Source: a virus
Virus record (IMG/VR): IMGVR_UViG_3300047560_000810
Location: 1-50,779 of that record
Length of the DNA: 50,779 bases
Strand: one strand, 5' to 3'
Below are positions 4,179 through 50,413 of this stretch, piece after piece (the stretch's first letter is position 1; every line of letters begins with the position of its first letter). The notes beneath the pieces were generated by a model. The model was not told the DNA's origin. It ran no database searches and saw nothing but the letters and a program-made list of their open reading frames with translations. Both the position numbers and the translations under genes were made by a program.

Positions 4179-4185
4179 GGATGCT

Positions 4186-5609: not shown

Positions 5610-5632
5610 AACTCGCTTAATAGGAGAAAACC

Positions 5633-6768: not shown

Positions 6769-6777
6769 ATATGTTAT

Positions 6778-6978: not shown

Positions 6979-6979
6979 T

Positions 6980-7264
6980 ATGATTAAAGTGTTTAAATTG
7001 ATTAATGGTGAAGAGTTAATTTCTGAAGTTAAATCTAATTCCGATGGAACTTATACTTTAGAATCTCCTGCATCTATTATGATGCAGCAAACTGAACGTG
7101 GAATGGGTGTTGGAGTTGCTCCATACATGCCATATGCGGTCGGTAATATTACTCTTAATAATTCGGCTGTTGCAGCAGTAGCCGATGCAGACCCTAAAAT
7201 GGAAAATGAATATCGCCGTGTATTCGGTTCTGGTATTCAGATCGTCCCCGCAGGAACGATCTAA
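6980..7264 (+). CDS. Small phage protein, possible Sm-like fold
   Basis: 94 residues from ATG 6980, preceded by TTGAGGAATAAT. The start (KVFKLINGEELISEV followed by a Ser/Asp/Gly turn and YTLESPA) resembles the two-strand Sm1 pattern of LSm/Hfq-type proteins, in which an N-G-E block precedes a strand. Related short proteins occur in T4-like phages without known function. It is the last gene before a strong terminator. The fold assignment is tentative. Confidence 0.55.
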   Translation: MIKVFKLINGEELISEVKSNSDGTYTLESPASIMMQQTERGMGVGVAPYMPYAVGNITLNNSAVAAVADADPKMENEYRRVFGSGIQIVPAGTI

Positions 7265-7265
7265 A

Positions 7266-7333
7266 AAGTAAACCTAAAGTATTACTTTTAATAACCCCAC
7301 CAAGTGTGGGGTTTTGTCATTTAGGGCTTGACA
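7266..7333 (+). repeat. Intergenic terminator-promoter cassette, copy 1
   Basis: AAGTAAACCTAA, then a terminator stem identical to that at 39757, then ATTTAGGGCTTG leading into the -35 of a promoter. The second copy is at 39733-39797. The cores (AACCCCACCAAGTGTGGGG and ATTTAGGGCTTG) are identical, while the connecting bases differ. Confidence 0.8.
7293..7316 (+). terminator. Rho-independent terminator
   Basis: CCCCAC (7295-7300) pairs with GTGGGG (7306-7311) around CAAGT and is followed by TTTTG. Flanking AA/TT extends the stem by two pairs. Confidence 0.9.
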
Positions 7334-7356
7334 AAGTTGCAGGATTGATGTATAAT
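7328..7356 (+). promoter_or_regulatory. Consensus sigma-70 promoter
   Basis: TTGACA (7328-7333), 17 bp, TATAAT (7351-7356): a perfect match in both boxes with optimal spacing. It drives the small-gene and DNA ligase operon beginning at 7388. Confidence 0.9.
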
Positions 7357-7387
7357 AACTCTTATGATGAATCGAGAAGGAGTTATT

Positions 7388-7624
7388 ATGAAAGTCGGCG
7401 ACATTGTGAAGAGTCTTGATTTTAACGGTATCGACAATTGCTATATGGTCGGTCAGGTGGTTTCCATCAGCGAGATGTACGGTGATTTCCGTGCCAAGTT
7501 CATCAAGCGTGTTTGGCAAGGTGTTGAAGATAAAAAGTTCAAGACTGATTTCTTCACTGCTGCAGTCCAAGGTAATGCGTTCATGGACACTGACGCCTCT
7601 CCTCGTATTCAGGTGATCGCATGA
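7388..7624 (+). CDS. Hypothetical protein (78 aa)
   Basis: ATG 7388 follows AAGGAGTTATT; upstream in-frame ATGs lack a ribosome binding site. MKVGDIVKSLDFNG and VGQVVSISEMYGDFRAKFIKRVW suggest a small SH3-like or beta-barrel protein. First gene after the consensus promoter, coupled to the next by an ATGA overlap. Function unknown. Confidence 0.6.
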   Translation: MKVGDIVKSLDFNGIDNCYMVGQVVSISEMYGDFRAKFIKRVWQGVEDKKFKTDFFTAAVQGNAFMDTDASPRIQVIA

Positions 7625-7803
7625 GAGTCCTCCAAGAAACCACTAAAGACTGGGTTGGCACAGTCACGAATCACATCTACTACGTCACTGACGATAAAAT
7701 GAAGATGGTCGCATTCTATAACGTAAACACCAAAACAATCAAGAAGTTTAAGAAGCCCATCGGTTTCGATACTCGATACAGAACCTTTAAGGAATTGAAA
7801 TGA
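7621..7803 (+). CDS. Hypothetical protein (60 aa)
   Basis: Starts within the previous stop (ATGA). Predicted mostly beta strand (GTVTNHIYYVTDDKMKMVAFYN) with a basic end (KKFKKPIGFDTRYRTFKEL). Ends in a four-base overlap with the next gene. No family recognised; existence is supported mainly by tight packing in the operon. Confidence 0.55.
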   Translation: MRVLQETTKDWVGTVTNHIYYVTDDKMKMVAFYNVNTKTIKKFKKPIGFDTRYRTFKELK

Positions 7804-8012
7804 AGGGTGTTAAGTATAAAGATACTTTCCTCGCGTATAACAGCGAAGCATATCATCTCTGGGATACTAAGTCTTTCAAAGAACTTGATCGTCATCTAAA
7901 AGAACTTGATCAAAAAGAACAAGACCTACTACGCAGGTATACTCCAAAAACTGAAACAGAAAAGAACGTAGATTTTCTAAAACAATTGGTAAAACAAAAT
8001 GAATCTAAATGA
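7800..8012 (+). CDS. Hypothetical protein (70 aa)
   Basis: Starts in an ATGA overlap and overlaps the ligase start by 14 bases. The N-terminus reads YKDTFLAYNSEAYHLWDT. Residues 25-70 are a charged helix (FKELDRHLKELDQKEQDLLRRY) that could form a coiled coil. No family recognised. Confidence 0.55.
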   Translation: MKGVKYKDTFLAYNSEAYHLWDTKSFKELDRHLKELDQKEQDLLRRYTPKTETEKNVDFLKQLVKQNESK

Positions 8013-9288
8013 ATTTTTCGAGAACCTAGCCAGCAACGCATCCCGCAATTACAAAATCGAACAGCTGAAGAAAAACAGTGACAACGAAAACCTAAAAGAA
8101 GTTGTTCGGCTGGCTCTCGATCCTTTCACGCAATTCTATCAGCGCAAGATTCCTACGTACACCCCGAACCAAAACCCTCTCGGAGACAATCTGGATTGGG
8201 CGCTGGACCAACTGGTGACCATGCTCGCTTCTCGAAAGGTCACTGGCAATGCTGCCATCGAACATCTACAATATGTCCTCGAAAACGTGACTGCTGATAA
8301 CGCGAAGGTCGTTGAGCGTGTTATCCAGAAAGACCTCAAGTGTGGTGTCCAAGTCTCAACCGCAAACGCAGTCTGGGATAACCTTGTCCACGAATATCCT
8401 GTCATGCTCTGTTCTCCTTTCGAGCAGAAGCTGGTGGACAAAATCACATTCCCCGCCTACGTCCAACTGAAGATGGATGGTATGCGTTTCAACGCCATCG
8501 TTAAGGACGGTAAGTGCGAATTCCGTAGCCGAAACGGTAAAGAGATTCAGCTACTCGGTAATCTCGAGGAAGAGTTTATCAAGCTAGCCGATGGCACAAA
8601 CTATGTGTTTGATGGTGAGTTGCTTGTTGTTGACAAGGGTATCATCCTCGATCGTCAAACTGGTAACGGTATCCTGAATAAAGCCAACAAGGGTACGATC
8701 AAGATTGATGAGGCTCGTAAAGTCCACGCAACCATCTGGGACGTTATTCCTTATAAAGATTTTGTGAAGGGTGTGGGTGTCTTCACCTACAAATCTCGCT
8801 TCACTGTCTTGAAGGAAATGAAGATGCCGAAGAAGGTTTCTCTGGTTAAGAGTTGGGAAGTCGAGAACTACGAAACTGCAAAGGCACTATTCGAAGAAAT
8901 GCTGCAACGTGGCGAAGAAGGCATCATCTTGAAAGACATGAACGGTGTCTGGGAAGACAAACGTTCCAAAGGTCAGATTAAATTCAAAGGTGAGATGGAG
9001 TGTGACCTGAAGATTGTTGGTATCGAAGAAGGTACTGGCAAGTATGCAGGAATGCTCGGCGCTATCCTTTGCGAATCTGCCGATGGTGTTATCAAAGTCT
9101 CTGTCGGCTCGGGTTTTACCGATGACCAACGTAAGACCTACGGTAAAGAAATAATTGACAAAATCGCTGCGATCAAGTATAATATGAGAATCAAGAACAA
9201 AGCTGGAGAAGAGTCTTTGTTCCTACCGATCGTTCTCGAAATTCGCGATGATAAAGAAGTCGCAGACTCTAGTGAGGTTATTAAATGA
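7999..9288 (+). CDS. 30: ATP-dependent DNA ligase, gp30-like
   Basis: 429 residues (T4 gp30 is 487). Motif I is KMDG (158-161), with Lys158 the likely AMP-acceptor. Motif IIIa region FDGELLV (204-210), motif IV EEGIILKD (306-313), and motif V region QIKFK (326-330). The N-terminal helical domain corresponds to the DNA-binding domain of T4-type ligases and the C-terminal part to the OB fold. It seals nicks during replication and recombination. A consensus promoter for downstream genes lies inside its 3' end. Confidence 0.95.
   Translation: MNLNEFFENLASNASRNYKIEQLKKNSDNENLKEVVRLALDPFTQFYQRKIPTYTPNQNPLGDNLDWALDQLVTMLASRKVTGNAAIEHLQYVLENVTADNAKVVERVIQKDLKCGVQVSTANAVWDNLVHEYPVMLCSPFEQKLVDKITFPAYVQLKMDGMRFNAIVKDGKCEFRSRNGKEIQLLGNLEEEFIKLADGTNYVFDGELLVVDKGIILDRQTGNGILNKANKGTIKIDEARKVHATIWDVIPYKDFVKGVGVFTYKSRFTVLKEMKMPKKVSLVKSWEVENYETAKALFEEMLQRGEEGIILKDMNGVWEDKRSKGQIKFKGEMECDLKIVGIEEGTGKYAGMLGAILCESADGVIKVSVGSGFTDDQRKTYGKEIIDKIAAIKYNMRIKNKAGEESLFLPIVLEIRDDKEVADSSEVIK
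9155..9183 (+). promoter_or_regulatory. Consensus sigma-70 promoter inside the ligase gene
   Basis: TTGACA (9155-9160), 17 bp, TATAAT (9178-9183), perfect in both boxes, within the last 45 codons of the ligase gene. It would drive the zinc-finger protein, exonuclease and DNA polymerase genes beginning at 9285. Confidence 0.7.
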
Positions 9289-9812
9289 CACATGATGAAT
9301 TCCAAAAGCGTATGGAGGAGAAGCATCCCCATATGTTCAGTGGTCGCTATGGCGGTTTCGCTGTAGGTGAGGGGTGGTATCCTATTATTGAAAGTCTTTG
9401 CGCGAATATTGAACACCATATCAAGCAAGTGCGCCACCGTCGCGCTCGGGATCTTCTTCTTGATCGTGCTCGAGATCGAGGCTTGGACTACGTGGTTCAC
9501 TTTCTTGCTGGTGGTAAACCAGTTCGAGATTGGCACTACGAAGACGCAGAAATTATTATGAAGACCCCTCACGCCATCCAAGAATATGTTCCTCGAGTTA
9601 AGGTAGCGCAGATCAAAGAGAAGTTCGGTGGGCTGCGTTTCTACTACGATGGTGGCGATGATGTTGTGTATGGTATGGTCACAATGGCTGAGTCATGGGC
9701 GAGTCGTACCTGCGAGACTTGTGGCGCAAAAGGACACCAACGTGGTGGTGGATGGGTTCGTACTCTCTGTGACGAACACGAAGCCGAATATCAAAAGAGA
9801 AAGAATTCCTAA
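9285..9812 (+). CDS. Conserved phage protein with C-terminal zinc-binding motif
   Basis: 175 residues, with an ATGA-type overlap with the ligase stop. The block VAQIKEKFGGLRFYYDGGDD followed by GMVTMAESWASRTCETCGAKG and GGWVRTLCDEHEAEY is a pattern I know from many unrelated phages. CETC plus CDEH (CxxC and CxxH) probably bind zinc. The N-terminal half is charged and helical. Function unknown; it sits between the ligase and exonuclease genes. Confidence 0.7.
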   Translation: MTHDEFQKRMEEKHPHMFSGRYGGFAVGEGWYPIIESLCANIEHHIKQVRHRRARDLLLDRARDRGLDYVVHFLAGGKPVRDWHYEDAEIIMKTPHAIQEYVPRVKVAQIKEKFGGLRFYYDGGDDVVYGMVTMAESWASRTCETCGAKGHQRGGGWVRTLCDEHEAEYQKRKNS

Positions 9813-10384
9813 TGTTTATTTTTGACGTAGAAAGTTTGGGTGTTGAATCGAACGCTGTCGTTCTTTCGGCAGGTTTGATCCATTTCGATCCAAACAAAGA
9901 ACCAACCTATCAAGACCTACTTGATCAGGCGTGTTTCGTTAAGTTCAAAGCAAAGGAACAGGCGACTGTGTATGGTCGAACTGTTTCTCAATCCACTCTT
10001 GAGTGGTGGCAGAATCAACACGAGTACGTCAAGAAGGTTTCTCTTGAACCTTCTAGCGAAGATGTGACTGCCGAAGAAGGTTTAACCATCCTTCATAACT
10101 ATATGAATAAGTTTCCAAACGCAAGGAAACAAACTATGTGGGCACGAGGCTCACTTGATCAGCTAGTAATCGACTCGCTTGCCGTAAAGATCGGAGCAGT
10201 AGAGATTACAGACTACGCGCAATGGCGAGATGTCCGCACCGCAGTCGATATTATGTATGGCACTTCCAATGGATACTGTGAAGTTGACCATCCGCTATTT
10301 CAGAGGCATAATGTTATCAAGCACCACCCTGTCCACGACTGTGCGTTGGATGCTATGATGTTAATGTACGGAAAACAAGTTTAA
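9812..10384 (+). CDS. dexA: DnaQ-type 3'-5' exonuclease, DexA-like
   Basis: 190 residues (T4 DexA is 227). Exo I is FDVESLG (4-10), with the first metal-binding Asp and Glu. Exo II lies in MWARGSLDQLVID, and the Exo III motif is HHPVHDCALDAMML, of the DEDDh type with the general-base His. T4 DexA degrades ssDNA from the 3' end. It lies directly upstream of the polymerase, and the two genes share a base at the TAATG junction. Confidence 0.8.
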   Translation: MFIFDVESLGVESNAVVLSAGLIHFDPNKEPTYQDLLDQACFVKFKAKEQATVYGRTVSQSTLEWWQNQHEYVKKVSLEPSSEDVTAEEGLTILHNYMNKFPNARKQTMWARGSLDQLVIDSLAVKIGAVEITDYAQWRDVRTAVDIMYGTSNGYCEVDHPLFQRHNVIKHHPVHDCALDAMMLMYGKQV

Positions 10385-12870
10385 TGGAATTTTATACCAG
10401 TGTGCATCCTATGGGCGACAAAATGCTCGTCCGTGGATACGACAAGGGAAGAGCATATCAGCGTAAGGTGGATTTCTACCCTACGCTGTATGTCACTTCT
10501 AAGAAGCAAACTAAATGGCAAACTCTCGAAGGAACTTACGTTGATGAGGTAAAACCTGGATCAATCAAAGAGACTCGCGACTTTGTCAAACGCTATGATG
10601 GCGTAGAAGGGTTCTCAGTTTATGGCAACACTAATTACTCTTACCAATATATTAGCGATATGTATCCTGATGATATTCATTGGGATATGGATCTCTTTAA
10701 AGTTTTTACAGTTGATATTGAAACCACTACTGAAAACGGATTCCCCGATATCAAAACTGCGAACGAAGAGGTTCTTCTAATCACAGTTAAGGATCTGGCG
10801 TCCAAGCGTATCATCACGTTTGGTACTCGAGCATTCCTGCACAACCGTGACGATCTCGTTTACGTCCATGCGACCAACGAACACGATCTACTGCGTCAGT
10901 TTCTGGCGTTCTGGGAGAAGAGTTATCCCGATGCCATCACTGGCTGGAACACCGACTTCTTCGACGTACCTTATCTGATTCGTCGTATTGCTCGGGAGTT
11001 GGGCGACAAGGAAGCTGAACGTATCAGCCCATGGCGTTACATCAACGAACGTAAGACCTTCATCAAGGGTAACGAAGAGATTCACTACGACATTCTCGGT
11101 ATCAGCCAGCTTGACTATCTGGAACTCTACAAGAAGTATACCTACACTAAGCAAGAATCGTACCGACTTGATTATATCGCTGAGCAAGAACTCGGTGACA
11201 AGAAGAAGGAAAACCCTGGAACTGACTTCAAGGATTTCTACACTAACTACTGGCAACACTTTGTTGAATATAACATTCACGACGTAGAGTTGGTTGACAA
11301 GATGGAAGACAAGATGCGTTTGATCGAACTGCATCTGACCATGGCGTACAACGCGAAGATCAATCCTGAAGACGTTTACTCACAGGTTCGTATGTGGGAT
11401 ACGATCATCTATAACCACCTGCGTCAAAAGGGAATCGTGATTCCTCAGAAGACTGTTAGTGGTAAGGATGCTCAATTCGAAGGCGCATTCGTTAAAGATC
11501 CAATCATCGGTGGTCACAAGTGGGTTGCCTCGTTCGACTTGAACAGTCTGTATCCTCACCTGATTATGCAGTACAACATCAGCCCTGAGACTCTGACTTC
11601 CGAGAAGCTGAGTGTTAGTGTTGACCGTCTGCTTGGTCAAGAGATTGATACATCGTACGCTCACCAACGCGACCTAACTGTAACTGCGAACGGTTGGTGT
11701 TATCGTAAAGACATCAAAGGGTTCATGCCCGAGTTGATGGAGAAGATGTACAAGGATCGTTCCAAGTTCAAGAAGCAAATGCTTGGTGTTGAGCAACAGT
11801 ATCAGAATGATAAGTCTCAGAAGCACCTATTGAAAGAGATCTCTCGCCTCAACAACCTGCAGATGGCGATGAAGATTGCGTTGAACTCTGCTTACGGTGC
11901 GATGGGTAACCAGTACTTCCGTTACTTCGATATCCGTATGGCTGAAGGTATTACCACTTCTGGTCAGTTGTCCATTCGTTGGATGGCGAACAAACTGAAC
12001 GTCTTTATGAATAACACTCTGAAGACTAAGGATGTTGACTACGTTATCGCGATTGACACTGACTCGATCTACCTGTCTCTTGAGACTTTGGTCGAGAAGG
12101 TTGCTGGTGATAAAGATACCGCTGGTAAGATCAAGTTTATGGACAAGATCTGCGAAGACGTTTTCCAACCATTCATTGATTCAGGATACAAAGAACTGGC
12201 TCAGTATATGAATGCGTATGCTCAGAAGATGGTTATGAAGCGAGAAGTTCTCGCCGACAAGGGTATCTGGACTGCCAAGAAGCGTTACATTCTCCGTGTT
12301 CATAACTCTGAGGGTGTTCAATTCGCGAAGCCTAAGATCAAAGTCATGGGTCTTGAGATGGTTAAGTCCTCGACTCCTGCTGTTATTCGTGATACGTTGC
12401 GTAGTTCGATTGACGTTATTCTGGAAGACGACGAGAAAGAACTCCACAAGTTCGTCGCTGACTTCAAGAAGAAGTTTGATAGAATGCCTATTCAAGATAT
12501 CGCATTCCCTCGAAGCTGTAACGGTGTGAAGCAGTATGCTGGTTCTCCGATCTATCAGAAGGGTACTCCTATCCAAGTGCGCGCTGCGTTGTTGTTTAAC
12601 CACCACTGCAAACGCCATGGAGTTGATAAGAAGTATCAGGCGATTCGAGATGGCGACAAGATCAAGTTTGTTTATCTGAGAACTCCGAACCCGATTCACG
12701 AGAATGTGATTGCGTTCAGTCAGGAGTTGCCAGAGGAGCTAGGATTGAACGCATACATAGATTATGACCTGCAGTTCGAAAAGGTTTTCTTGGATGCGCT
12801 CCAGATCGTTATCGAACCGTTAGGATGGAAGACTCAAGAAGAAAGTTCATTGGAGGATTTCTTTGGATAA
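10384..12870 (+). CDS. 43: DNA polymerase, family B, gp43-like
   Basis: 828 residues (T4 gp43 is 898). The proofreading domain has Exo I DIET (111-114), Exo II TGWNTDFFDVPYL (186-198) and Exo III YNIHDVELVDKM. In the polymerase domain, motif A is FDLNSLYP (384-391, Asp385), motif B is KIALNSAYG (497-505), and motif C is DTDS (558-561). The end DFFG fits a clamp-binding tail such as that of T4 gp43. It is uninterrupted, with no intein or intron. It replicates the phage genome with the clamp and loader encoded at 2.5-4.9 kb. Confidence 0.97.
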   Translation: MEFYTSVHPMGDKMLVRGYDKGRAYQRKVDFYPTLYVTSKKQTKWQTLEGTYVDEVKPGSIKETRDFVKRYDGVEGFSVYGNTNYSYQYISDMYPDDIHWDMDLFKVFTVDIETTTENGFPDIKTANEEVLLITVKDLASKRIITFGTRAFLHNRDDLVYVHATNEHDLLRQFLAFWEKSYPDAITGWNTDFFDVPYLIRRIARELGDKEAERISPWRYINERKTFIKGNEEIHYDILGISQLDYLELYKKYTYTKQESYRLDYIAEQELGDKKKENPGTDFKDFYTNYWQHFVEYNIHDVELVDKMEDKMRLIELHLTMAYNAKINPEDVYSQVRMWDTIIYNHLRQKGIVIPQKTVSGKDAQFEGAFVKDPIIGGHKWVASFDLNSLYPHLIMQYNISPETLTSEKLSVSVDRLLGQEIDTSYAHQRDLTVTANGWCYRKDIKGFMPELMEKMYKDRSKFKKQMLGVEQQYQNDKSQKHLLKEISRLNNLQMAMKIALNSAYGAMGNQYFRYFDIRMAEGITTSGQLSIRWMANKLNVFMNNTLKTKDVDYVIAIDTDSIYLSLETLVEKVAGDKDTAGKIKFMDKICEDVFQPFIDSGYKELAQYMNAYAQKMVMKREVLADKGIWTAKKRYILRVHNSEGVQFAKPKIKVMGLEMVKSSTPAVIRDTLRSSIDVILEDDEKELHKFVADFKKKFDRMPIQDIAFPRSCNGVKQYAGSPIYQKGTPIQVRAALLFNHHCKRHGVDKKYQAIRDGDKIKFVYLRTPNPIHENVIAFSQELPEELGLNAYIDYDLQFEKVFLDALQIVIEPLGWKTQEESSLEDFFG

Positions 12871-13411
12871 TATTCGTATCATTAAGACTGGTCTTAACGT
12901 ATCGAAGATTCTAAGGCAGTTGGAGAAACATCCAGAAGATTGGGGAGTTCAGACTAGAGAGGATGGAGTAAAATCCATGCTCACCTACGGATTCCCTGAA
13001 GTTCAGGCTGGTGTTCTCCAGCTGGTCATGGGTGCAATCTCTGAGGTCGGACAGTATGTTGGTGACTCAGAAATCTGTGTACCAACTGCAGCCTATAATA
13101 GACATAACGAAGTGATTAGTTTCGTCAAACGTCACTTCAAGAAAGTCAGTCGTTGTGGTTTCCTTTCACTCCCAGTTGGTGGAGAGGTTGGAACTCATAT
13201 CGACATTGGAACTTACTACCAAACTAGGGATCGCTATCATCTGTCCATACAAGGCAGATACATATACACTGTAGGAGATGAATCTGTTACAGTGGAGCCT
13301 GGAACTCTACTTTGGTTCAACAATAAATTACCACATGGGACTAAAAACATTGGTGACAACGTTCGCGTTACATTCGTTTTCGATGTACCGCATTCGAAGA
13401 ATAATCCATAA
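12863..13411 (+). CDS. Aspartyl/asparaginyl beta-hydroxylase-like Fe(II)/2OG dioxygenase
   Basis: 182 residues, overlapping the polymerase gene by 8 bases. The jelly-roll core shows THIDIG with iron ligands His112 and Asp114, LPHGT with His158, and NVRVTFVFD with Arg168, which would bind 2-oxoglutarate. GRYIYTVGDESVTVEPGTLLWFNN between them is typical of the AspH family. Homologues hydroxylate Asp/Asn or other substrates; the target here is unknown. It is one of five such oxygenases in the window. Confidence 0.75.
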   Translation: MDNIRIIKTGLNVSKILRQLEKHPEDWGVQTREDGVKSMLTYGFPEVQAGVLQLVMGAISEVGQYVGDSEICVPTAAYNRHNEVISFVKRHFKKVSRCGFLSLPVGGEVGTHIDIGTYYQTRDRYHLSIQGRYIYTVGDESVTVEPGTLLWFNNKLPHGTKNIGDNVRVTFVFDVPHSKNNP

Positions 13412-14762: not shown

Positions 14763-15090
14763 TCATCTAGCTAAACCACCATTCGTGGTTCTGGAGAGCG
14801 CCACAACTGGCGCTTATCGACTAAAGTTGACAGAACCGCCATATGCGGGTATAATCTTTTCTTACGGTAAGGTTGCTTTTGATGAGAGTGGTGATAGCTG
14901 CAAAATGAGTTTCGAGTACGATGTACACGAAGATGCAGGTGTCACTTACATCAAAGAAGAACTTGAGCAGTACCTTGGAGATATGCTGCAGCTGATTATT
15001 TTAGAACAGCTGCAGAAGAATATGGTATCATATACAGGCGGAGTTGATGAGAATAGAACAACAGATTCTGAGCAGACTGATTTACGATGA
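14755..15090 (+). CDS. Conserved phage protein between uvsX and helicase genes
   Basis: 111 residues, overlapping uvsX by 8 bases and the helicase gene by 44. PPYAGIIFSYGKVAFDESGD..MSFEYDV is a beta-rich core, followed by a helix (YIKEELEQYLGDMLQLIILEQL). Proteins of this pattern occur at the same place in other T4-like phages without a function. A consensus promoter lies within its first third. Confidence 0.65.
   Translation: MSDHLAKPPFVVLESATTGAYRLKLTEPPYAGIIFSYGKVAFDESGDSCKMSFEYDVHEDAGVTYIKEELEQYLGDMLQLIILEQLQKNMVSYTGGVDENRTTDSEQTDLR
14827..14855 (+). promoter_or_regulatory. Consensus sigma-70 promoter inside a gene
   Basis: TTGACA (14827-14832), 17 bp, TATAAT (14850-14855). CCGC/GCGG around CATAT forms a small inverted repeat in the spacer. 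GGG precedes the -10 box, as in several promoters of this genome. It would drive the helicase gene. Confidence 0.7.
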
Positions 15091-16438
15091 GCAATATTGC
15101 CGAAAAGTAGTACCATTCATCAAACGCGATTATTTCGTTGACAAGAAAGAGGCTATCGTAGCCAACGTTGTAACTGAGTTCTTTAACAAGTACAACAAGC
15201 CTCCAACGAAAGACATTGTTTCCATTGAACTTGGAAACCGAAAAGACCTCACTGACAAAGAGTTGGCTGAGGTCAATTCCTTTGTCGATAGTCTAAGTGA
15301 TGCTCCAGTCAATGAAGACTGGATGTTGGAACATACTGAGAAGTTCTGTAAAGACCGAGCAGTCTATAACGCAATTCTTAATTCGATTAAGATCATCGAT
15401 GGGCGCGACAAGGTTCTGACGCAGGACGCTATCCCTTCCATTCTGTCTGATGCGCTAGCAGTCTCTTTTGATAGCCATGTGGGTCACGACTACTTGGAAG
15501 ACCATGAGTCTCGTTATGAGTATTACCACCGTGTCGAAGAGAAGATCGCTTTCGATCTCGAGATGTTCAACAAGATCACGAAGGGTGGTTTGTCCAAGAA
15601 GACTCTGAACATCGCGTTGGCAGGTACTGGTGTTGGTAAGTCGTTGTTTATGTGTCACGTTGCCGCAGGTTGTCTAACACAGGGTAAAAACGTCTTATAC
15701 ATAACAATGGAAATGGCAGAAGAACGTATCGCTGAACGTATCGACGCTAATCTGTTGAACCTGACGATGGACGAACTGAAGGTGATCGACCGCGACATCT
15801 ATGAGACTCGTATCAGTAAGATTACGAAAAAGACTCAAGGCAAGCTGATCATTAAAGAATATCCAACAGCTGGTGCACACTCTGGTCATTTCCGAGCATT
15901 GTTGGAAGAGTTGAAGTTGAAGCGTGATTTTGTTCCCGATATCATCTTCATTGACTACCTGAACATCTGCGCTTCTCAGCGTATGAAGCAGGGAGGCTCT
16001 GTAAACTCTTATACATATGTTAAGGCAATCGCAGAAGAACTAAGAGGTTTAGCCGTTGAATATAACGTCCCAATTGTTAGCGCAACTCAGACAACTCGAT
16101 CTGGATATACAAACTCAGATCCAGGACTTGAAGACACTTCAGAATCTTTTGGTCTACCTGCAACAGCTGACTTTATGTTCGCGCTTGTAAGCAACGAAGA
16201 ACTGGAAGCATTGAATCAAATTATTGTCAAGCAATTGAAAAACCGATATAATGATCCTAGTTACTTCAAGCGTTTTGTGGTTGGTATTGATAGAGCAAAG
16301 ATGAAACTCTACGATGTAGAAGCATCTGCGCAAGAAGGTTTGTCAGACTCTGGTCAGGATGATACTCCAGTCTTCGATAAGGGAGACTTCGGTAAGAGGG
16401 TTAATTCCGAGAACAAGTTTGATGGTTGGAAGTTTTAA
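15047..16438 (+). CDS. 41: Replicative DNA helicase, gp41-like (DnaB family)
   Basis: 463 residues (T4 gp41 is 475). ATG 15047 has GGCGGAG just upstream. The N-terminal helical domain begins RIEQQILSRLIYDEQY. RecA-type ATPase core: Walker A GTGVGKS (193-199), IIFIDYLNI as Walker B, VSATQTTRSG as the later DnaB motif. It unwinds DNA 5' to 3' ahead of the polymerase and works with the primase encoded at 30.2 kb. A promoter for the modification operon lies in its 3' end. Confidence 0.95.
   Translation: MRIEQQILSRLIYDEQYCRKVVPFIKRDYFVDKKEAIVANVVTEFFNKYNKPPTKDIVSIELGNRKDLTDKELAEVNSFVDSLSDAPVNEDWMLEHTEKFCKDRAVYNAILNSIKIIDGRDKVLTQDAIPSILSDALAVSFDSHVGHDYLEDHESRYEYYHRVEEKIAFDLEMFNKITKGGLSKKTLNIALAGTGVGKSLFMCHVAAGCLTQGKNVLYITMEMAEERIAERIDANLLNLTMDELKVIDRDIYETRISKITKKTQGKLIIKEYPTAGAHSGHFRALLEELKLKRDFVPDIIFIDYLNICASQRMKQGGSVNSYTYVKAIAEELRGLAVEYNVPIVSATQTTRSGYTNSDPGLEDTSESFGLPATADFMFALVSNEELEALNQIIVKQLKNRYNDPSYFKRFVVGIDRAKMKLYDVEASAQEGLSDSGQDDTPVFDKGDFGKRVNSENKFDGWKF
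16224..16252 (+). promoter_or_regulatory. Sigma-70-type promoter inside the helicase gene
   Basis: TTGTCA (16224-16229), 17 bp, TATAAT (16247-16252). About 190 bases upstream of the TET/JBP-like gene, it would be the promoter of the base-modification operon. Confidence 0.65.
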
Positions 16439-23436: not shown

Positions 23437-23444
23437 TATAAATA
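23437..23444 (+). promoter_or_regulatory. T4-type late promoter
   Basis: TATAAATA is an exact match to the T4 late -10 consensus, in the 42-base gap before the gene at 23472. It would drive the virion-associated genes that follow. Confidence 0.75.
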
Positions 23445-23471: not shown

Positions 23472-24320
23472 ATGAAAGATTACAGACAATTTCTGAAGCA
23501 ATTACCGTCAAAGACTGTCGTTCTAGCCTGTGGGAAGTTTAACCCTCCAACACTAGGTCACGAACTCCTAGTCAAGACTGTCAAAAAACTGGCTGAGTCT
23601 AAGAACGCAGACCACGTAATCTATGCATCCAATGTAAGCGATGCGAAAAAGAATCCTCTAGTCGTAGAAAAGAAACTCCAGTATCTTGATCTGGTGTTCC
23701 CGAAAACCAACTTCAAAGAGTCTGGTGATAACATCGGGGAAATCGTCAAGAGCCTAAGAGAACATTATAAGAACATCGTTGTAGTCACTAGCTCAGACAA
23801 GGTTAACTCTCTAAAGAAGTTGAACGTTGAGGCTGTAGTTATTGGCGACAAGGATCCAGACAGCGAAGACTCTACAAGAAGTCTTGCTGCAAAGGGTTTG
23901 TATGAAGAGTTCAAGAAGAACCTTCCTACTTCCATTCGTGAATTGGATAGTCGTCGTTTGATGAACGACATTCGAGTTGGTTCTGGTATGGAGCCAATCA
24001 AAGAACAGATTAACTTGGTGAAGAACGAATTGAGAGAACAATACTTCAGAGGCGAGATCTTTAATGTGGGCGACATCGTTGAATGTGCAGGCACAGAGTA
24101 TGAGATTGTAAAGCGAGGTTCAAATCATTTGCTTTTGAAGTGCTCTGAGGGTAAACTTATCTCTAAGTGGCTCCAGGAAGTTAAGCAGGTAAAAAAGTCT
24201 CAAATTAAAATGAAGACTGGTGAGAAGTCTATCCCAGCTGAGAATGGTACAGTGCCACTCAACGGTAAGCCATTCGATCCGTTCTTCAAGGAATCCTTCA
24301 AAGAATGGAGAACAAAATAA
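23472..24320 (+). CDS. Nucleotidyltransferase with capsid-targeting-like N-terminus
   Basis: 282 residues. The cytidylyltransferase-like (HIGH) motif is GKFNPPTLGHELL (21-33), where PTLGH is the nucleotide-binding T/HxGH. VVVTSSDKVN and GDKDPDSEDSTRS continue the Rossmann-type domain. The first residues (MKDYRQFLKQ) resemble the T4 internal-protein signal MKTYQEFIAE, shared with neighbours. Residues 190-282 form a separate domain with FNVGDIVECAGTEYEIVKRG, SH3-like. It sits right after a late promoter and may be packaged in the head. Substrate unknown. Confidence 0.75.
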   Translation: MKDYRQFLKQLPSKTVVLACGKFNPPTLGHELLVKTVKKLAESKNADHVIYASNVSDAKKNPLVVEKKLQYLDLVFPKTNFKESGDNIGEIVKSLREHYKNIVVVTSSDKVNSLKKLNVEAVVIGDKDPDSEDSTRSLAAKGLYEEFKKNLPTSIRELDSRRLMNDIRVGSGMEPIKEQINLVKNELREQYFRGEIFNVGDIVECAGTEYEIVKRGSNHLLLKCSEGKLISKWLQEVKQVKKSQIKMKTGEKSIPAENGTVPLNGKPFDPFFKESFKEWRTK

Positions 24321-24757
24321 TGGATGAGTTGGTAACGTCCCTGAGAATTGCACTGGCAAATACATTCGTAATGTATTTCAAAGTGCATCAGTTTCATTGG
24401 AATGTGGAAGGCGCAGACTTTCCACAATGGCATGGTTTCCTAGGAGACCTGTATGAAGATGTGTATGGTGCAGTGGATCCTCTTGCGGAGAACATTCGTA
24501 AGTTAGATGCATATGCTCCACGTACTTTAGAAGAGATGTGGAATCATAAGACTATCCCAGAAACAACTGGTGATGTTAAAGATATCCAAGGAATTCTAAA
24601 TGAAATTCAAAAGGCTAACCTAGAAGTACTCGCAAGTCTGAAGAAGGCTTACGATCTAGGTGAGGAAAATAAAACCTACGGGCTATGTAACTTCTTGGCG
24701 GATCGTATCGATACCCACGAAAAGCATAGCTGGATGTTAAAGGCGTCAATGAAATGA
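24320..24757 (+). CDS. dps: Dps-like ferritin
   Basis: 145 residues from ATG 24320 (TAATG overlap), with GGAG 9 bases upstream. The Dps ferroxidase signature is complete: HW at 26-27, His38, Asp53 and Glu57 have exactly the 12/15/4 spacing of E. coli Dps. The dodecamer oxidises and stores iron and can shield DNA. It lies among genes for putatively packaged proteins and may protect phage DNA or control free iron during infection. Confidence 0.9.
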   Translation: MDELVTSLRIALANTFVMYFKVHQFHWNVEGADFPQWHGFLGDLYEDVYGAVDPLAENIRKLDAYAPRTLEEMWNHKTIPETTGDVKDIQGILNEIQKANLEVLASLKKAYDLGEENKTYGLCNFLADRIDTHEKHSWMLKASMK

Positions 24758-25932
24758 AGACATTTATCTCTTTCTTAAAAGAAGAAGCGGAAGCAGAAGG
24801 TGCTAAGCTAAAGCACATTCACCATGCAGAGGATCGCCCTCTAATGCATGGTCATGAAGGTTTCGAGCATGCACATGGTGCGCTAACTCAAGCCCATGAG
24901 CACATGAAAGCTGGTCACAAGTCCAGCGGTCTGACTATGAAGTACGATGGTTCTCCATCTGTTGTTTACGGTCACCACCCAGAGTCTGGTAAGTTCTTCG
25001 TTGCATCTAAGTCTGCCTTTAACAAGAACCCTAAGCTAAACTATACTCACGAAGACATTCAAAAGAACCATGGACATGCTCCAGGTCTAGTTGATAAGCT
25101 AGGTGCTGCACTAAAGCATCTACCAAAGGTTGCTCCTAAGAAGGGTGTTTATCAAGGTGACATCATGCACAGCGGTGATGTTGAACACCACAAGAGCGGT
25201 AACGTCTCTTTCAAACCAAACACTATTACCTATACAGCTAAGGGCGATCAGGCTAAGGCTCACAAGGAAGCTAAGCTAGGTGTTGTTACTCACACCAAGT
25301 ACGAAGGTAAGGACATGGCTTCTATGAAGGCTACTCCTCACGTTAGCGACTCTGAGTTCAGCAAGCACAAAGACGTTGCTCACCACACTGCTGAACACGA
25401 TACTTCTAAGATTAGCTATCCACAGAAGGCTCAGGAAACATTCCACAAGCACATGAGTGCTGCCAAAGATATCCACGATACTCATGGCGCAAAGATGTAT
25501 TCAGCTACAGAAAAGCATCGTGGTGAAAATTCCCACATGACTACTTACATCAATAGCACTGTTAAGAACGATCAGGTTCCATCTGCTAAGGGTTTCCAAG
25601 AACACATTAAGTCTCAAGGTGAGAAGGCTGCTGCTAAGGTTAAGACTGAGAAGTCTCAAACTGCAAAGCGCGCAGAAGCTGCAGAACATGTATCCCACGT
25701 AGAAGCCAACAAAGAGCACTACGGTAATCTGTTCTCAATGCACCACCACCTACAACAAGCAAAGAATACTCTAGTTAAACACCTAGAAACTCACGAAGGT
25801 GGTTATGAACACCACATTAATGACACTAAGTCTAAGCCAGAAGGTTTCGTTGTTAATCATAAGAATGAGCCAACTAAGTTGGTAAACCGATCTGAGTTCG
25901 CTAAGGCTAACTTACTAAAGGTTAAAAAGTAA
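24754..25932 (+). CDS. Covalent nucleotidyltransferase-like (ligase-fold) protein, His-rich, capsid-targeting-like N-terminus
   Basis: 392 residues, overlapping dps by 4 bases. TMKYDGSPS contains KxDG (Lys63, Asp65, Gly66), the motif I of ATP/GTP-dependent ligases. VYQGDIM (132-138) fits motif III, PEGFVV (362-367) motif IV, and TKLVN (374-378) motif V. The protein is strikingly rich in His and Lys. The N-terminus MKTFISFLKE|E resembles the T4 capsid-targeting signal with its L-x-E cut site. It may be an RNA or DNA ligase delivered with the genome. Fold inference is from motif order only. Confidence 0.6.
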   Translation: MKTFISFLKEEAEAEGAKLKHIHHAEDRPLMHGHEGFEHAHGALTQAHEHMKAGHKSSGLTMKYDGSPSVVYGHHPESGKFFVASKSAFNKNPKLNYTHEDIQKNHGHAPGLVDKLGAALKHLPKVAPKKGVYQGDIMHSGDVEHHKSGNVSFKPNTITYTAKGDQAKAHKEAKLGVVTHTKYEGKDMASMKATPHVSDSEFSKHKDVAHHTAEHDTSKISYPQKAQETFHKHMSAAKDIHDTHGAKMYSATEKHRGENSHMTTYINSTVKNDQVPSAKGFQEHIKSQGEKAAAKVKTEKSQTAKRAEAAEHVSHVEANKEHYGNLFSMHHHLQQAKNTLVKHLETHEGGYEHHINDTKSKPEGFVVNHKNEPTKLVNRSEFAKANLLKVKK

Positions 25933-26543
25933 TGTTATCATTCCTTTCATTCCTAAAAGAAAGCGCGAGCGAGAAACACGGCGTTCTCGCTTTCGGTCGT
26001 ATGAACCCACCTACTGCTGGTCATGAGCAGGTAGTCAATAAGGTTCACGAAGTTGCTAAAGAGCATGGTGGTGAACACCATGTGGTTCTTTCTCACTCTC
26101 AAGATAAGAAAAAGAATCCTCTACCAGCAGATCGTAAGGTTGAGCATGCTAAGAATGCTTTCCCTGGAACTAACATCTCTGCTGCTTCAAAAGAGAAGCC
26201 GACTATTCTGCACCATGCTGCAGATATGCACAAAGCTGGAATCAAGCACCTACACGTAGTTGCTGGTTCTGATCGCCACGAGGCAATGCACGAACTACTA
26301 CATAAATATAATGGACAAAAATCTGCTCACGGTCATTATAATTTTAAGTCTATTACAGTGCACTCTTCTGGAGATCGCGATCCAGACTCTGAAGGAACAA
26401 GCGGTGTCTCTGGAACTAAGATGCGTGAACATGCCGCAGCAGGAAACAAAGAAGAATTCCACAAACATCTCCCGTCCAAAATGAAGGGAGAGCACAGAGA
26501 TGCTTTGTTCCACGATTTACGTAAGCATATGGGGCATGACTAA
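25932..26543 (+). CDS. NMN/nicotinate adenylyltransferase-like nucleotidyltransferase with capsid-targeting-like N-terminus
   Basis: 203 residues, TAATG overlap. GRMNPPTAGHEQVV (22-35) is the HIGH-type motif, VVAGSDRHEAM lies in the middle, and GTSGVSGTKMREH is the ISxTxxR-like motif that binds phosphates. This matches small NMNAT/NadM-like enzymes making NAD or a related dinucleotide. The N-terminus MLSFLSFLKE|S resembles the T4 head-targeting signal and is not needed for the fold. It may be packaged and act on NAD metabolism early in infection. Confidence 0.7.
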   Translation: MLSFLSFLKESASEKHGVLAFGRMNPPTAGHEQVVNKVHEVAKEHGGEHHVVLSHSQDKKKNPLPADRKVEHAKNAFPGTNISAASKEKPTILHHAADMHKAGIKHLHVVAGSDRHEAMHELLHKYNGQKSAHGHYNFKSITVHSSGDRDPDSEGTSGVSGTKMREHAAAGNKEEFHKHLPSKMKGEHRDALFHDLRKHMGHD

Positions 26544-27955
26544 TGAAATCCTATAAACAATTTACTGAAGGTACTATCCAGCCAAATGGAACCGATAAAA
26601 TCGATCCCGCTTGTGTTGAGGTAGCACCAAAGAAGAAAACGGAAAAAGAGATGGAAGACCAACAAAACGAATCTTTTACATTCGACTCTGCTGCTCTAGC
26701 AAAGCAAGAACTTGCTGATGCTAAGAACAGAAAGCACCGCAAGCGTGGTAAGGTAGCTAACCTTCTACGTAAGCTAGGCATGAGAGAGGGTTTAGATATC
26801 TCTACAGAAGATAACAAGGAAGGAACACCTATGAATGATAAAGAAGTTGTGCAAATCGACGAGTTGACAACTGGTCTTTTGATGCGCTATAAAGGCGGAG
26901 TTGGCAAGAAACTTCTTAACCCAGAAACTAGAGATGCAGCACAGGCATCTCCTCAACACCAAGTTGGTGTTCGTAGAGCTAACAAGCGAATTGTTAAGAA
27001 CGAGCACGAAAAGAACTTTGGTAAGAGAAATGAAGAAGTTGAATTGACAGCCGAAGCTGCAGTTGTAGATAAAGCTAAAACTGCAGCAGCTGCTCGTTCT
27101 AAATCTGATTCTCCTGGCTTCCAAGCATACCTAGCTGCTCAACGTAAGAAGCGCGCAGAAGCAGCTGCATCAAAACCAGCTACACCGCCAGCAGTTAAAG
27201 AAGAAGTCGAACAGATTGATGAGATTTCTGCAGAAACTGAACACAGCTATTTCAAAGCACGATATGCTCAGCAACCTGACCGCACAAAGAGATCGAAGAA
27301 GGTTCGTCAAGGTATGGACAGAGTCACCAACCGTGCATTGAAGCGTAATACGATGAGTACTGATGGAGCTTCTCAAGATTTTGCAGATCAAGAAAAGAAA
27401 CGTGGCGTTGGTCATGTCCGTGATCACGTTGAACTAGAAGGTAACCAACTCGACGAACGTAACCAAGAAAACGCATTGAAGCGTAAGTCTATGGATGCTT
27501 CTCGTGGTGCGCGTTATAAGGCTGCTGGCAACCCAGTTCCAGAAGCTGGCGCAGAACACAAGACTGCTCAACAACACAACAAGGCTATCGGGCGTGCACT
27601 ACGCAACGAAGGAACTAAGAGCCTTCGTGAATTTATCGAGACTCTATCTGAAGCTAAGCCAGTTAATGTTGACAAGGTTAATGCTGCTGGTCAGGCACCA
27701 CACGAAGAGAAGTGGGAGAATGCTAAGAAGCCAGCTGTCAAGAAAGAATCCTTCACAGCCGACCAACTTCTAGTCGCGTTGAAAGAAGGTATGTGGCCAG
27801 GTACTCCTGAGTACAAAGCTAAGTTTGAGAACCAAGCTAAGCAAGGTGGTGGCTCTGGTGTTAAGAAGGGATCTCGTTACGGCGGTTCTCTACAGAAGCC
27901 TGATAATGATAATGACTCTGACGATGCAAAGCCAGAGACTAAGAAGAATAAATAA
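26543..27955 (+). CDS. Charged low-complexity protein, possible prohead core/internal protein
   Basis: 470 residues, TAATG overlap. It starts MKSYKQFTE|G, again like the T4 internal-protein targeting sequence. The body is rich in Lys, Glu, Ala and Arg without a clear fold. Short repeated patterns VVQIDELTTG, EVEQIDEIS, NQLDERN, ELTAEA and TLSEA contain (L/I)-x-E sites, the cut consensus of T4 prohead protease gp21. This suggests a scaffold or internal protein that is cleaved and packaged, but no homologue is recognised. Confidence 0.5.
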   Translation: MKSYKQFTEGTIQPNGTDKIDPACVEVAPKKKTEKEMEDQQNESFTFDSAALAKQELADAKNRKHRKRGKVANLLRKLGMREGLDISTEDNKEGTPMNDKEVVQIDELTTGLLMRYKGGVGKKLLNPETRDAAQASPQHQVGVRRANKRIVKNEHEKNFGKRNEEVELTAEAAVVDKAKTAAAARSKSDSPGFQAYLAAQRKKRAEAAASKPATPPAVKEEVEQIDEISAETEHSYFKARYAQQPDRTKRSKKVRQGMDRVTNRALKRNTMSTDGASQDFADQEKKRGVGHVRDHVELEGNQLDERNQENALKRKSMDASRGARYKAAGNPVPEAGAEHKTAQQHNKAIGRALRNEGTKSLREFIETLSEAKPVNVDKVNAAGQAPHEEKWENAKKPAVKKESFTADQLLVALKEGMWPGTPEYKAKFENQAKQGGGSGVKKGSRYGGSLQKPDNDNDSDDAKPETKKNK

Positions 27956-27985: not shown

Positions 27986-28276
27986 ATGGCACTATGGGGA
28001 AATACTGACAACGCTGGCAGCAAGCCAAAGTTCGTCTCTCAAGACGCTAACGGTTCTATCGGTGGAACTGCTGGTGTAGCAATCACTTACGGCGTTGACG
28101 CTGTAGAAGAAAACGTTGCTTCCAACAAAGCTAAAGGTATGCAACACGCAGGATGGGTTCGTCGCCTATCTTATACTGATGCTCAAGGTAACGTCCGTAA
28201 CAAGACTGAAACATTGGTCGCTATGGGTTCCATTACTGGTGACAATGGCGACGACTCAGTCGTTGCTGATGCCTAA
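27986..28276 (+). CDS. Conserved small virion-type phage protein
   Basis: 96 residues, with RBS AAGGAG. It begins MALWGNTDNAGSKPKFV and continues NKAKGMQHAGWVRRLSYTDAQGNVRNKTETLVAMGSI, a pattern I recognise from T4-like aquatic phages where it is listed as a structural protein. Gly-rich and beta-like. Its place after the core-like gene supports a virion role. Function unproven. Confidence 0.6.
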   Translation: MALWGNTDNAGSKPKFVSQDANGSIGGTAGVAITYGVDAVEENVASNKAKGMQHAGWVRRLSYTDAQGNVRNKTETLVAMGSITGDNGDDSVVADA

Positions 28277-28312: not shown

Positions 28313-28690
28313 ATGCTAGAGAAACTGACTGAAAATAACTTCCTTGTTTATGCGATGCATCACTATGATAATCCACAATGTCATAGCCTAGATGAGTTCG
28401 AAGAAGATCTGAAGAAGATCCTATATCTAAAGAAGTTATTATCTCGTTACAAAAATAATGGTGAGTTGAGAGAACGTCTAATTCTCAATCATATTATCGT
28501 ACTTTATAATATCTTTGGAGAAGCAGCAACTAACATGCTCTTCTACAAAATTGAAAAGTCTAATTGGGATGTACTGATTACGTTTTTGGTTTACTTAGAA
28601 AGAATGCCAGAGACGATACCGCAGTATGGAATACAACTCTCTCAAGTACAATTGGATGAGAGAGTGATAGCAACGTTAAGGAATATCTAA
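28313..28690 (+). CDS. Conserved phage protein of unknown function
   Basis: 125 residues, all-helical (FEEDLKKILYLKKLLSRYKNNGELRERLILNHIIVLYNIFG..ATNMLFYKIEKSNWDVLITFLVYL). The pattern recurs in T4-like phages beside structural genes. A hairpin (GAGGG 28287-28291 with CCCTC 28299-28303) covers the GGAGG ribosome binding site, so translation may depend on coupling or RNA refolding. Confidence 0.6.
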   Translation: MLEKLTENNFLVYAMHHYDNPQCHSLDEFEEDLKKILYLKKLLSRYKNNGELRERLILNHIIVLYNIFGEAATNMLFYKIEKSNWDVLITFLVYLERMPETIPQYGIQLSQVQLDERVIATLRNI

Positions 28691-29229
28691 TGAGTCGTAT
28701 CGTAGATAACGTAGTAGCGATGAAAATTGTTCGAATGCTTGTCACTAACTTCAGTGACACGAAGGCGTTCAAACTAGGTATCATTGATGCTCACGGTAAC
28801 ACTCTTAAGCCAGCAAGCACTCTTCGCACTGCAGAAGAGAAGGAAGCCTTCACGTATCTAGATCGTCTAGTCTTCAATATGAAGAAGATCATCAACCGTC
28901 TTCCAGGTGGTGAGAGCACTCTAAAGAGTCTAGTCAGTGCATTATGGTTAGTCAAAGAATACTATGAGAGTGGTTCAAGAACCACATCTCTTATGGAAGA
29001 ACGATACAAAGAAGTCATGCGTATCGTTAATAGCAATGTCGTCCTAGCTGAAGAACAACTTGTTGTATCTAAGGTTCTAGCTGAGGAAGGTATGGGCGCT
29101 GGTGCTGTTGGTGGTGCACCAACAAATAATACTAGCGGTCCAGTTGCTACACAAGAACCAAAGATCGGTAAGAAAGACATCAAGAAGTATCAAGTGATGG
29201 CTCGCCGTCCAGCGCCAGTGAATAAATAA
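28690..29229 (+). CDS. Conserved phage protein, probably virion-associated
   Basis: 179 residues, sharing a base with the previous stop. MSRIVDNVVAMKIVRMLVTNF..TKAFKLGIIDAHG..LKPASTLRTAEEKEAFTYLDRLVFNMKKIINRLPGG is a conserved block of T4-like phages, found beside the preceding family. The C-terminal part is Gly/Ala/Pro-rich and ends basic. Function unknown. Confidence 0.65.
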   Translation: MSRIVDNVVAMKIVRMLVTNFSDTKAFKLGIIDAHGNTLKPASTLRTAEEKEAFTYLDRLVFNMKKIINRLPGGESTLKSLVSALWLVKEYYESGSRTTSLMEERYKEVMRIVNSNVVLAEEQLVVSKVLAEEGMGAGAVGGAPTNNTSGPVATQEPKIGKKDIKKYQVMARRPAPVNK

Positions 29230-30238: not shown

Positions 30239-31270
30239 ATGTTATACATTGATGCAAAGTATGCACTACTACTAGGCAGTCGCCTACGAAATTTCAAACA
30301 AAAGAAAGATTACAATTGGAACTTTTCGTGTCCATTTTGTGGGGATAGCACAACCAACAAATTGAAGGCGCGTGGATACCTTTATCGTTCCAAAGCAGAT
30401 CTTCTCTACAAATGCCATAACTGTGGTAAGGGTACTAACGTAGGCAACCTTATCAAGTATGTGGACTCTAAACTTTATGATGAGTATGTTCTTGAACGCT
30501 ACAAAGCTGGCGCTACAAGATACAATGATCACAAAGACGTTAAAGAAACTAGCGTCATTCTAGAATCTCCCAAAGAAGAATTGCTCGAGGATGATATCCT
30601 TTCCTCTCTAACGAGAATGGATAAGTTACCACTCACCCATCCTGCTTTGAAGTATCTGATTGATCGTAAGTTGCCTAGAGATAAGTGGAAGCTACTTTAC
30701 TTCGCTCCTAAATTTAAACAGTACACTAACACAGTCACTCCTAAGTTTCAAGAGCCGATTGAAGGTGAACACCCTCGACTAATCATCCCTTACTTTACTG
30801 CAGCGGGTAAGTGTTTCGCTTATCAGGCTAGAGCGTTTGGTGATGAACAGCCGAAGTATTACATGATCAAAGTGGATGATAATGAGGAGAAAGTATATGG
30901 ACTCGACAGAGTTGACTTCAGTAAACGAATCTACGTGGTGGAAGGACCAATTGACTCTTTGTTCCTCCCGAACTGCGTGGCTGTATCAGGAAGCAGTTTT
31001 GATACCCCTAGTGTTCGTAGGATCCTTGCTAATGCTACGTTAGTGATGGATAATGAGCCTCGCTCAAAAGAAATAACCAAATTGCTTGCCAAGAATATCA
31101 AGGCTGGTTATAGTGTTTGTATGTTCCCTGAACATATCGAACAAAAAGATATCAATGATATGATTAGGGACGGTGGAATGTCGGTGGACCAGATAATGGA
31201 AACGATAAATACAAATACCTTTTCAGGGATTGAAGCGGAATTAAGATTTAGCACATGGAAGAAAGTATGA
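30239..31270 (+). CDS. 61: DNA primase, gp61-like
   Basis: 343 residues (T4 gp61 is 342). The N-terminal zinc-binding domain is SCPFCGDST (Cys31, Cys34) and YKCHNCGKG (Cys59, Cys62). The TOPRIM part shows RIYVVEGPIDSLFLPN, with the catalytic Glu, and LVMDNEPRS, with the metal-binding acidic residues. It makes RNA primers for lagging strands with the gp41 helicase. It has its own promoter with a hairpin that may control translation. Confidence 0.93.
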   Translation: MLYIDAKYALLLGSRLRNFKQKKDYNWNFSCPFCGDSTTNKLKARGYLYRSKADLLYKCHNCGKGTNVGNLIKYVDSKLYDEYVLERYKAGATRYNDHKDVKETSVILESPKEELLEDDILSSLTRMDKLPLTHPALKYLIDRKLPRDKWKLLYFAPKFKQYTNTVTPKFQEPIEGEHPRLIIPYFTAAGKCFAYQARAFGDEQPKYYMIKVDDNEEKVYGLDRVDFSKRIYVVEGPIDSLFLPNCVAVSGSSFDTPSVRRILANATLVMDNEPRSKEITKLLAKNIKAGYSVCMFPEHIEQKDINDMIRDGGMSVDQIMETINTNTFSGIEAELRFSTWKKV

Positions 31271-50406: not shown

Positions 50407-50413
50407 AACATAA

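Follow-up and report, generated by a model that had tools for sequence, protein, structure and literature searches.

A cluster of genes in a 50,779-base IMG/VR record (IMGVR_UViG_3300047560_000810; hereafter the window), a fragment, lacking the head genes, of a T4-like phage, encodes proteins with a shared ten-residue N-terminal segment (hereafter the tag). This segment is very probably a capsid targeting sequence (CTS) of the T4 type, and the locus a late-expressed cargo operon. The four window proteins that carry it, designated NT1, LIG, NT2 and CORE (Table 1), begin with MKDYRQFLKQ, MKTFISFLKE, MLSFLSFLKE and MKSYKQFTEG, respectively, exactly as a preliminary description of this DNA had stated. 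The phages of this group are T4-like and mostly metagenome-derived, and our verdict is that a T4-type capsid-targeting system has here been expanded into an enzyme cargo locus. The head packaging that the preliminary description proposed is well supported by the agreement of the tag with positions mapped in T4, its confinement to one locus, its occurrence on unrelated protein families, the presence of gp21 and gp23 in relatives, and, as independent evidence, the detection by mass spectrometry of tagged cytidylyltransferase homologs in the virions of four cyanophages.

Across 80 related viral loci, the tag is conserved in NT1, LIG and NT2, and is not found in the Dps-like protein of the cluster or in the genes preceding it. 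Two measures were used: a strict pattern, M..[FY]..[FYL][LIV].E, and a position-specific profile built from 95 unique tag 11-mers, with T4 not in the training set. Training picked the best methionine within the first nine residues, which introduces a mild circularity that leaves the whole-genome and T4 tests unaffected. Information among the 11-mers is highest at residues 4 (3.09 bits), 7 (2.84), 10 (2.41) and 8 (2.09), and these are the positions mapped genetically in the targeting sequence of T4 IPIII, in which residues 4 and 7 determine targeting and residues 8 and 10 processing, the D10 substitution blocking processing while targeting is kept (PMC9026906). The T4 signal consists of the first ten residues of IPIII and is identical to the IPII propeptide (PMC9026906); the prohead protease that processes them likewise removes the first ten residues of gp24 (PMC9958956). 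An aromatic or large hydrophobic residue occupies positions 4 and 7 in all four window proteins. The matching E claimed for position 9-10 stands at residue 10 in LIG and NT2, where it follows L8 and completes a gp21 site (L/I-x-E), and at residue 9 in CORE (T8, E9); NT1 has Q10, and the tags of NT1 and CORE are variants. Cleavage past E10 is likely in LIG and NT2, to judge from their sequences; window NT1, given its Q10, is probably targeted and not cut there. Its homologs mostly read MK[DN]Y[RK]Q[FL][LI][RK]E, with E10 in place of the Q10. In 32 LIG homologs E10 is invariant and M1, F4 and L8 are each conserved in at least 90%, and in NT2 homologs E10 is likewise invariant, with a linker that differs in length separating it from the conserved enzyme. 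CORE homologs start with MKTFKQFSEK or MKTFKQFNEA.

The tag is also specific. At gene starts, the strict pattern occurs in 2-4 of 229-267 genes per near-complete relative, all but one of the occurrences lying within this cluster, and among about 5,500 internal methionines it occurs once. Whole relatives (222-264 open reading frames (ORFs) each) have 3-5 tagged genes per genome, nearly all in this cluster, so that a search for the same N-terminus elsewhere, suggested at the outset, found it essentially confined here. Among the other ORFs inside the NT1/LIG/NT2 block, 55 of 117 are tagged, compared with 33 of 748 elsewhere in the loci, the latter mostly flanking the block. One could envisage that the shared N-terminus reflects a bias of translation initiation toward early codons rich in A/T, or common descent of the N-terminal coding segment, with no signal function; the tags do start with ATGAAA or similar, and NT1 and NT2 are homologous enzymes whose similarity could be partly inherited. 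This explanation is highly improbable, because other genes of the same genomes and of the same operon (Dps and P22134) have no tag, LIG, DUF6321 and other unrelated families do, and E10 is invariant in LIG and NT2 despite the variation in linker length. The four window tags, moreover, have just 14-21 of 33 nucleotides in common and encode the same residues by different codons, which argues that they are not recent DNA copies and have been maintained as protein sequence.

The preliminary description regarded the tag as an addition in front of the enzyme fold, and the structural models of LIG and NT2 bear this out: in both modelled enzymes the tag lies outside the predicted fold. Residues 1-20 of the LIG model have a predicted local distance difference test (pLDDT) value below 50 and the ligase fold aligns from about residue 15, while the NT2 model has a loose helix at residues 4-10 and its fold from residue 16. 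Each of the five LIG-NT2 (DUF6267-NT2) fusions carries a single tag, located where the fused protein begins. Homologs in the jumbo phages RaK2 and Erwinia pEa_SNUABM_12 are untagged and start almost directly at the catalytic fold, indicating that the fold does not require the tag. A further tagged type, the DUF6321 protein, is found in 44 loci and is missing from the window; other unrelated tagged bodies in the block include two families of about 350-410 residues, one protein with an FDIDDT (HAD-like) motif and several small ones. The tag is thus common to unrelated protein families and moves between proteins. Clustering of tagged proteins by mutual coverage gave 39 groups, among which some NT1/NT2 fusions are still split, so the truly unrelated families are fewer, roughly fifteen by eye; the drop in identity past residue 10 in this set is partly an artefact of motif-based selection.

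Identification of the enzymes as two nucleotidyltransferases and a ligase-like protein agrees with their Pfam matches (Table 1) and with the motifs and modelled fold of LIG. In LIG, K63xD65G66, E363G364xV366 and K375xV377 are invariant, and all listed VIA-align matches to its model are ligases, the best being the Naegleria RNA ligase (Z 9.0 over 186 residues), with T4 Rnl2 and Rnl1 among the others; Foldseek alone gave no significant match to this model. The KxDG, EGxV and KxV motifs together with the modelled ligase fold place LIG in the RNA/DNA ligase superfamily. In NT2, T28, G30 and H31 (TxGH) and S160, K163 and R165 are invariant, the TxGH and SGTKxR (SxTxxR-type) motifs are largely intact, and the best Foldseek matches to the model are NadD/NMNAT (E 8.8e-5, template modelling (TM) score about 0.5), which places NT2 in the HxGH-type NMNAT/NadD superfamily as far as the model can be relied on. 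Judging from catalytic motifs and model resemblance, both NT2 and LIG appear to be catalytically competent. PDB sequence searches using the family alignments returned no relevant match.

Over the 248 ORFs in the first 150 kb of T4, the profile gave five scores above 5 bits: 61.1 (19.4), ipII and ipIII (16.7 each), td (9.0) and gp24 (5.5). We count td as a false positive. The profile is blind to tags offset by one residue (S-SZBM1 MRFRQFIIEA), to T4 ipI (0.5 bits) and to Alt. The best T4 tag belongs to gp61.1 (NC_000866 18966-19130), an uncharacterised 54-residue protein whose gene adjoins gp61 and which starts with MKTFKEFIKED; the tag rule thus predicts gene 61.1 to encode a new T4 cargo. Past its tag, gp61.1 has a copy of the gp23 cleavage-site region (gp23 QAFGSFLTE|AEIGGDHGYNATNIAAGQTSGAVTQIGP; local alignment Z 12.2), and the gp23 cleavage site has the same F..FLxE|A spacing as the tag. 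The C-terminal part (AEEGMGAGAVGGAPTNNTSGPVATQEPKIGKK) of the window protein encoded at 28690-29229 resembles T4 gp61.1 (Z 4.9) and its gene lies near gp61, as does 61.1. Two virion proteins encoded at the corresponding place in cyanophages, S-CREM2 gp160 and S-SCSM1 gp97, resemble the N-terminus of a relative's gp23.

The exact late promoter reported ahead of the cluster is present (Table 1), and exact TATAAATA copies number only three in the window, both strands included. Of 39 unique homologous loci, 11 have TATAAATA at a distance of 25-34 nt ahead of NT1, where 0.68 would be expected, and this conservation in sequence supports late expression of the tagged cluster. The protease gp21 (PF03420) and gp23 are present in 9 of 10 relatives searched; the record of locus L008, a fragment, has no head genes. 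The gp23 and gp22 proteins of the relatives contain sites of the matching LxE|A/S type (ALFE|A, ILAE|S and KLDE|A).

The tag might direct proteins to the prohead, where they would act as core components or assembly factors and then be degraded or left behind, with no delivery to the host. In T4, gp21 largely destroys the core proteins gp22 and gp67 once they have been packaged, injection of the window proteins rests on inference, and NT1 has many L/IxE sites. We regard such a role as unlikely, given that the enzyme domains are intact with invariant catalytic residues and that tagged homologs are found in mature virions; LIG bodies are also depleted in L/IxE sites (observed/expected 0.28), though this measure varies widely by family. 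The ratio is 0.72 for NT2, 2.5 for NT1 and 0.54 to 1.9 for non-cargo families, and because of the NT1 value and the non-cargo spread, site depletion was dropped as a general test of cargo. The description of the fourth protein as core-like was not established: CORE has no family match in Pfam or PHROGs and contains 8 gp21 sites where 5.7 are expected (T4 gp22, 20 and 10.4), and with neither a family nor clear site enrichment, the reading of CORE as a gp22-like scaffold was set aside. The proteins at its position in S-SCSM1 and S-SZBM1 are virion proteins.

Published virion proteomes of cyanophages bear directly on the preferred reading, that of a capsid targeting sequence. T4-GC190 was detected in S-SM1 virions (PMC3037559) and corresponds to SSM1_190, with the N-terminus MKKFSAFLNEA. 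S-SCSM1 virions contain gp91, an 'NMNAT' (PMC9602691) that begins with MKSFLQFLKEAA, and the neighbouring gp89, gp90, gp92 and gp93 are annotated as virion proteins. In S-SCSM1 gp93 (10487-10696; 69 residues), it is the C-terminal end that is tag-like (KKRTFKEFLEYIE). Both S-SZBM1_140, which starts with MRFRQFIIEA, and _139 were detected in virions, and S-SZBM1_141, an untagged DUF6267 protein, is absent from the virion protein list (PMC9146016). In S-CREM2 the cytidylyltransferase gp154 (MKNFSSFLTEA) was found in virions, as were three proteins from a second locus, gp6 (SAM hydrolase, MKDFDSFLEEF), gp13 (MKDLHSFLTEQ) and gp14 (kinase, MKRFDAFLTEE); the untagged gp7-gp11, neighbours of these three, were not detected (PMC10665884). 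This second, cargo-like locus (S-CREM2 3837-13331) encodes a SAM hydrolase, a Cas9, a kinase and two small proteins, each of which was detected in virions and has a tag-like N-terminal segment. The one in Cas9, LRFASFMAEAA, starts at residue 17 as annotated and its L is encoded by CTG; the signal may therefore be internal, or the gene start wrongly annotated. The S-PM2 counterpart of the enzyme is the rear part of a fusion whose leading DUF6267 domain carries no tag; GC190 is listed as undetected in S-PM2 virions (PMC3037559), and which gene was counted as GC190 there is uncertain. The proteome papers on S-SM1, S-SCSM1, S-SZBM1 and S-CREM2 name no targeting signal, and for marine T4-like phages the open literature searched yielded no description of a targeting sequence, most subscription journals lying outside the search.

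Short amphipathic helices are common docking peptides, and the segment could serve to dock the proteins to a non-prohead partner, such as an early-infection or replisome complex, with detection in virions resulting from co-purification, which the authors of two of the proteomes mention. This is very unlikely, since the profile-tagged ORFs of S-CREM2 comprise 4 of 50 detected proteins and 0 of 164 undetected ones (Fisher p 0.0027), with genes at the distant second locus among the four, and since the key positions are identical to those of the T4 CTS, the protease-site E10 included.

Several observations nevertheless weigh against the tag as a targeting sequence for head cargo. With a simple regular-expression pattern, the association pooled over three proteomes has a p of 0.028 and no single proteome falls below 0.05, and the length-based mapping for S-SZBM1 overcounts. 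A tagged family of about 105 residues encoded near terL was undetected in S-SCSM1 and S-SZBM1 virions; its members share MKxFKxFxSESVNISGDFNGNLY and are encoded at S-SCSM1 44203-44535 (near terL) and S-SZBM1 122311-122640. Conversely, S-SCSM1 gp89, gp90 and gp92 and S-SZBM1_139 are virion proteins from the block that have no tag, indicating that the tag is not the sole way into the head. The cyanophage authors' warning of co-purification (two proteomes) applies here as well, and the virion data come from homologs, not from this phage or its close relatives. Packaging of LIG is predicted from sequence and finds no direct support in the cyanophages, the DUF6267 proteins examined there being untagged. 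Finally, NT1 has Q10 and a body rich in L/IxE sites, and CORE has T8 and E9.

We infer scaffold binding, E10 cleavage, retention of uncut NT1, injection and a host role, as follows. Late transcription from 23437 would yield tagged proteins during prohead assembly; the short amphipathic tag, with aromatic or hydrophobic residues at 4, 7 and 8, would bind the scaffold core, and the enzymes would be enclosed as the shell closes. A gp21-type protease would then cut past E10 where the site is intact (LIG and NT2), freeing mature enzymes before DNA entry, and the enzymes would stay inside the capsid and accompany the DNA into the next host. Since purified virus particles contain tagged relatives, delivery of ready-made enzymes along with the DNA is probable for these phages. 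An NMNAT/NadD-like nucleotidyltransferase, a related second nucleotidyltransferase and an RNA-ligase-like enzyme would thereby arrive before any phage gene expression, most likely to act in the metabolism of NAD/nucleotides or RNA ends, and perhaps to counter host defences.

Known head cargo offers parallels. T4 IPI, IPII and IPIII likewise have a ten-residue N-terminal signal with aromatic residues at 4 and 7, L/I at 8 and E10, a prohead protease, and similar tags in front of unrelated bodies; IPI acts as an inhibitor of a type IV restriction enzyme. The T4 cargo, however, consists of small proteins encoded at ipI-ipIII, whereas the window cargo consists of enzymes encoded in one operon between gp41 and gp61, and packaging and cutting are established in T4 but predicted from sequence here. 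T4 Alt, an ADP-ribosyltransferase, is also an enzyme packaged in the head and injected, with a short cleaved N-terminal propeptide, but its N-terminus (MELITELFDE) is off the profile (-10 bits) and its fold is unrelated. Ejection proteins of the giant phages phiKZ and SPN3US are packaged in the head and cut after E by a gp21-like protease, although the phiKZ cleavage motif is S/A-x-E. The cyanophages S-SM1, S-CBWM1, S-SCSM1, S-SZBM1 and S-CREM2 have homologous virion-associated NMNAT-like proteins or cytidylyltransferases, mostly encoded at the same genomic place and tagged in S-SM1, S-SCSM1, S-SZBM1 and S-CREM2; they have one or a few tagged proteins there, as opposed to three to five in one operon in the present group.

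A CTS has been proposed to allow T4-like phages to take in varied proteins (PMC9026906), so the principle is already known; the new elements are this group's operon of multiple cargo enzymes and the connection drawn from the tag to unexplained cyanophage virion enzymes. Metabolic enzymes have turned up repeatedly in the proteomes of cyanophage virions, where they were described as unexplained or as possible contaminants, and the tag offers a mechanism for their presence, as well as a sequence-based rule for predicting head cargo with nothing but a genome at hand. We give roughly even chances to a broader hypothesis, in which aquatic T4-like phages have a general tag-addressed cargo compartment that loads and delivers any protein with the ten-residue tag. 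An exchangeable gp41-gp61 locus, with further loci elsewhere, would stock it with unrelated effectors (NMNAT-like, RNA-ligase-like, DUF6321 and others; in S-CREM2 a SAM hydrolase, a kinase and perhaps Cas9) that act before phage transcription. If the head-cargo reading is right, infection by marine T4-like phages brings in enzymes as well as genes, with a bearing on the early takeover of the host and the evasion of its defences.

Table 1. Features of the proposed cargo locus and its flanks in the window.
Feature	Position	Strand	Evidence or remark
T4-type late promoter -10 element TATAAATA	23437..23444	+	exact match, 27 nt ahead of NT1 start codon
NT1, cytidylyltransferase-like (HxGH-type) nucleotidyltransferase, tagged	23472..24320	+	Pfam CTP_transf_like 24.5 bits, over cut-off; phrog_3041/395
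NT1 tag MKDYRQFLKQ	23472..23501	+	profile 18.3 bits; Y4, F7, L8 present, Q10
Dps/ferritin-like protein, untagged, inside cluster between NT1 and LIG (serves as internal control)	24305..24757	+	Pfam Ferritin 3e-21; tag profile -20
LIG, DUF6267 (PF19782) RNA-ligase-like covalent nucleotidyltransferase, tagged	24754..25932	+	Pfam DUF6267 2e-96, 324 bits (cut-off 27)
LIG tag MKTFISFLKE	24754..24783	+	profile 22.7; predicted cut past E10 (LKE|E)
NT2, NMNAT/NadD-like nucleotidyltransferase, tagged	25932..26543	+	Pfam CTP_transf_like
NT2 tag MLSFLSFLKE	25932..25961	+	profile 20.8; predicted cut past E10 (LKE|S)
CORE, low-complexity charged protein, variant tag	26543..27955	+	19% K+R, 19% hydrophobic; no Pfam/PHROGs match
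CORE variant tag MKSYKQFTEG	26543..26572	+	profile 7.8; resembles T4 ipI MKTFKEFTST (NC_000866)
Head-protein family member closing cluster, untagged	27986..28276	+	phrog_613 head protein 3.5e-13
gp41-like helicase, upstream anchor of locus	15044..16438	+	synteny with S-SM1, Syn9, S-SZBM1, S-SCSM1
gp61-like DNA primase, downstream anchor of locus	30239..31270	+	synteny with S-SM1, Syn9, S-SZBM1, S-SCSM1

The syntenic order in cyanophages is gp41, MazG, DUF6267, cytidylyltransferase, head protein, gp61 and nrdA. A late promoter element lies upstream of the phrog_613 head-protein gene in 6 of 27 loci, and S-SZBM1 gp136, the positional counterpart of the window's phrog_613 protein, is a virion protein. 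Of the 80 loci, 55 encode a homolog of the untagged Dps-like ferritin embedded in the operon. Elsewhere in the window, three consecutive genes at 47491-48471 encode proteins that, from their sequences, resemble an IscU-type scaffold and two A-type Fe-S carriers, and the end of the fragment (50333-50779) carries a tRNA-Gln (ttg) and two tRNA-Lys (ctt, ttt) genes.

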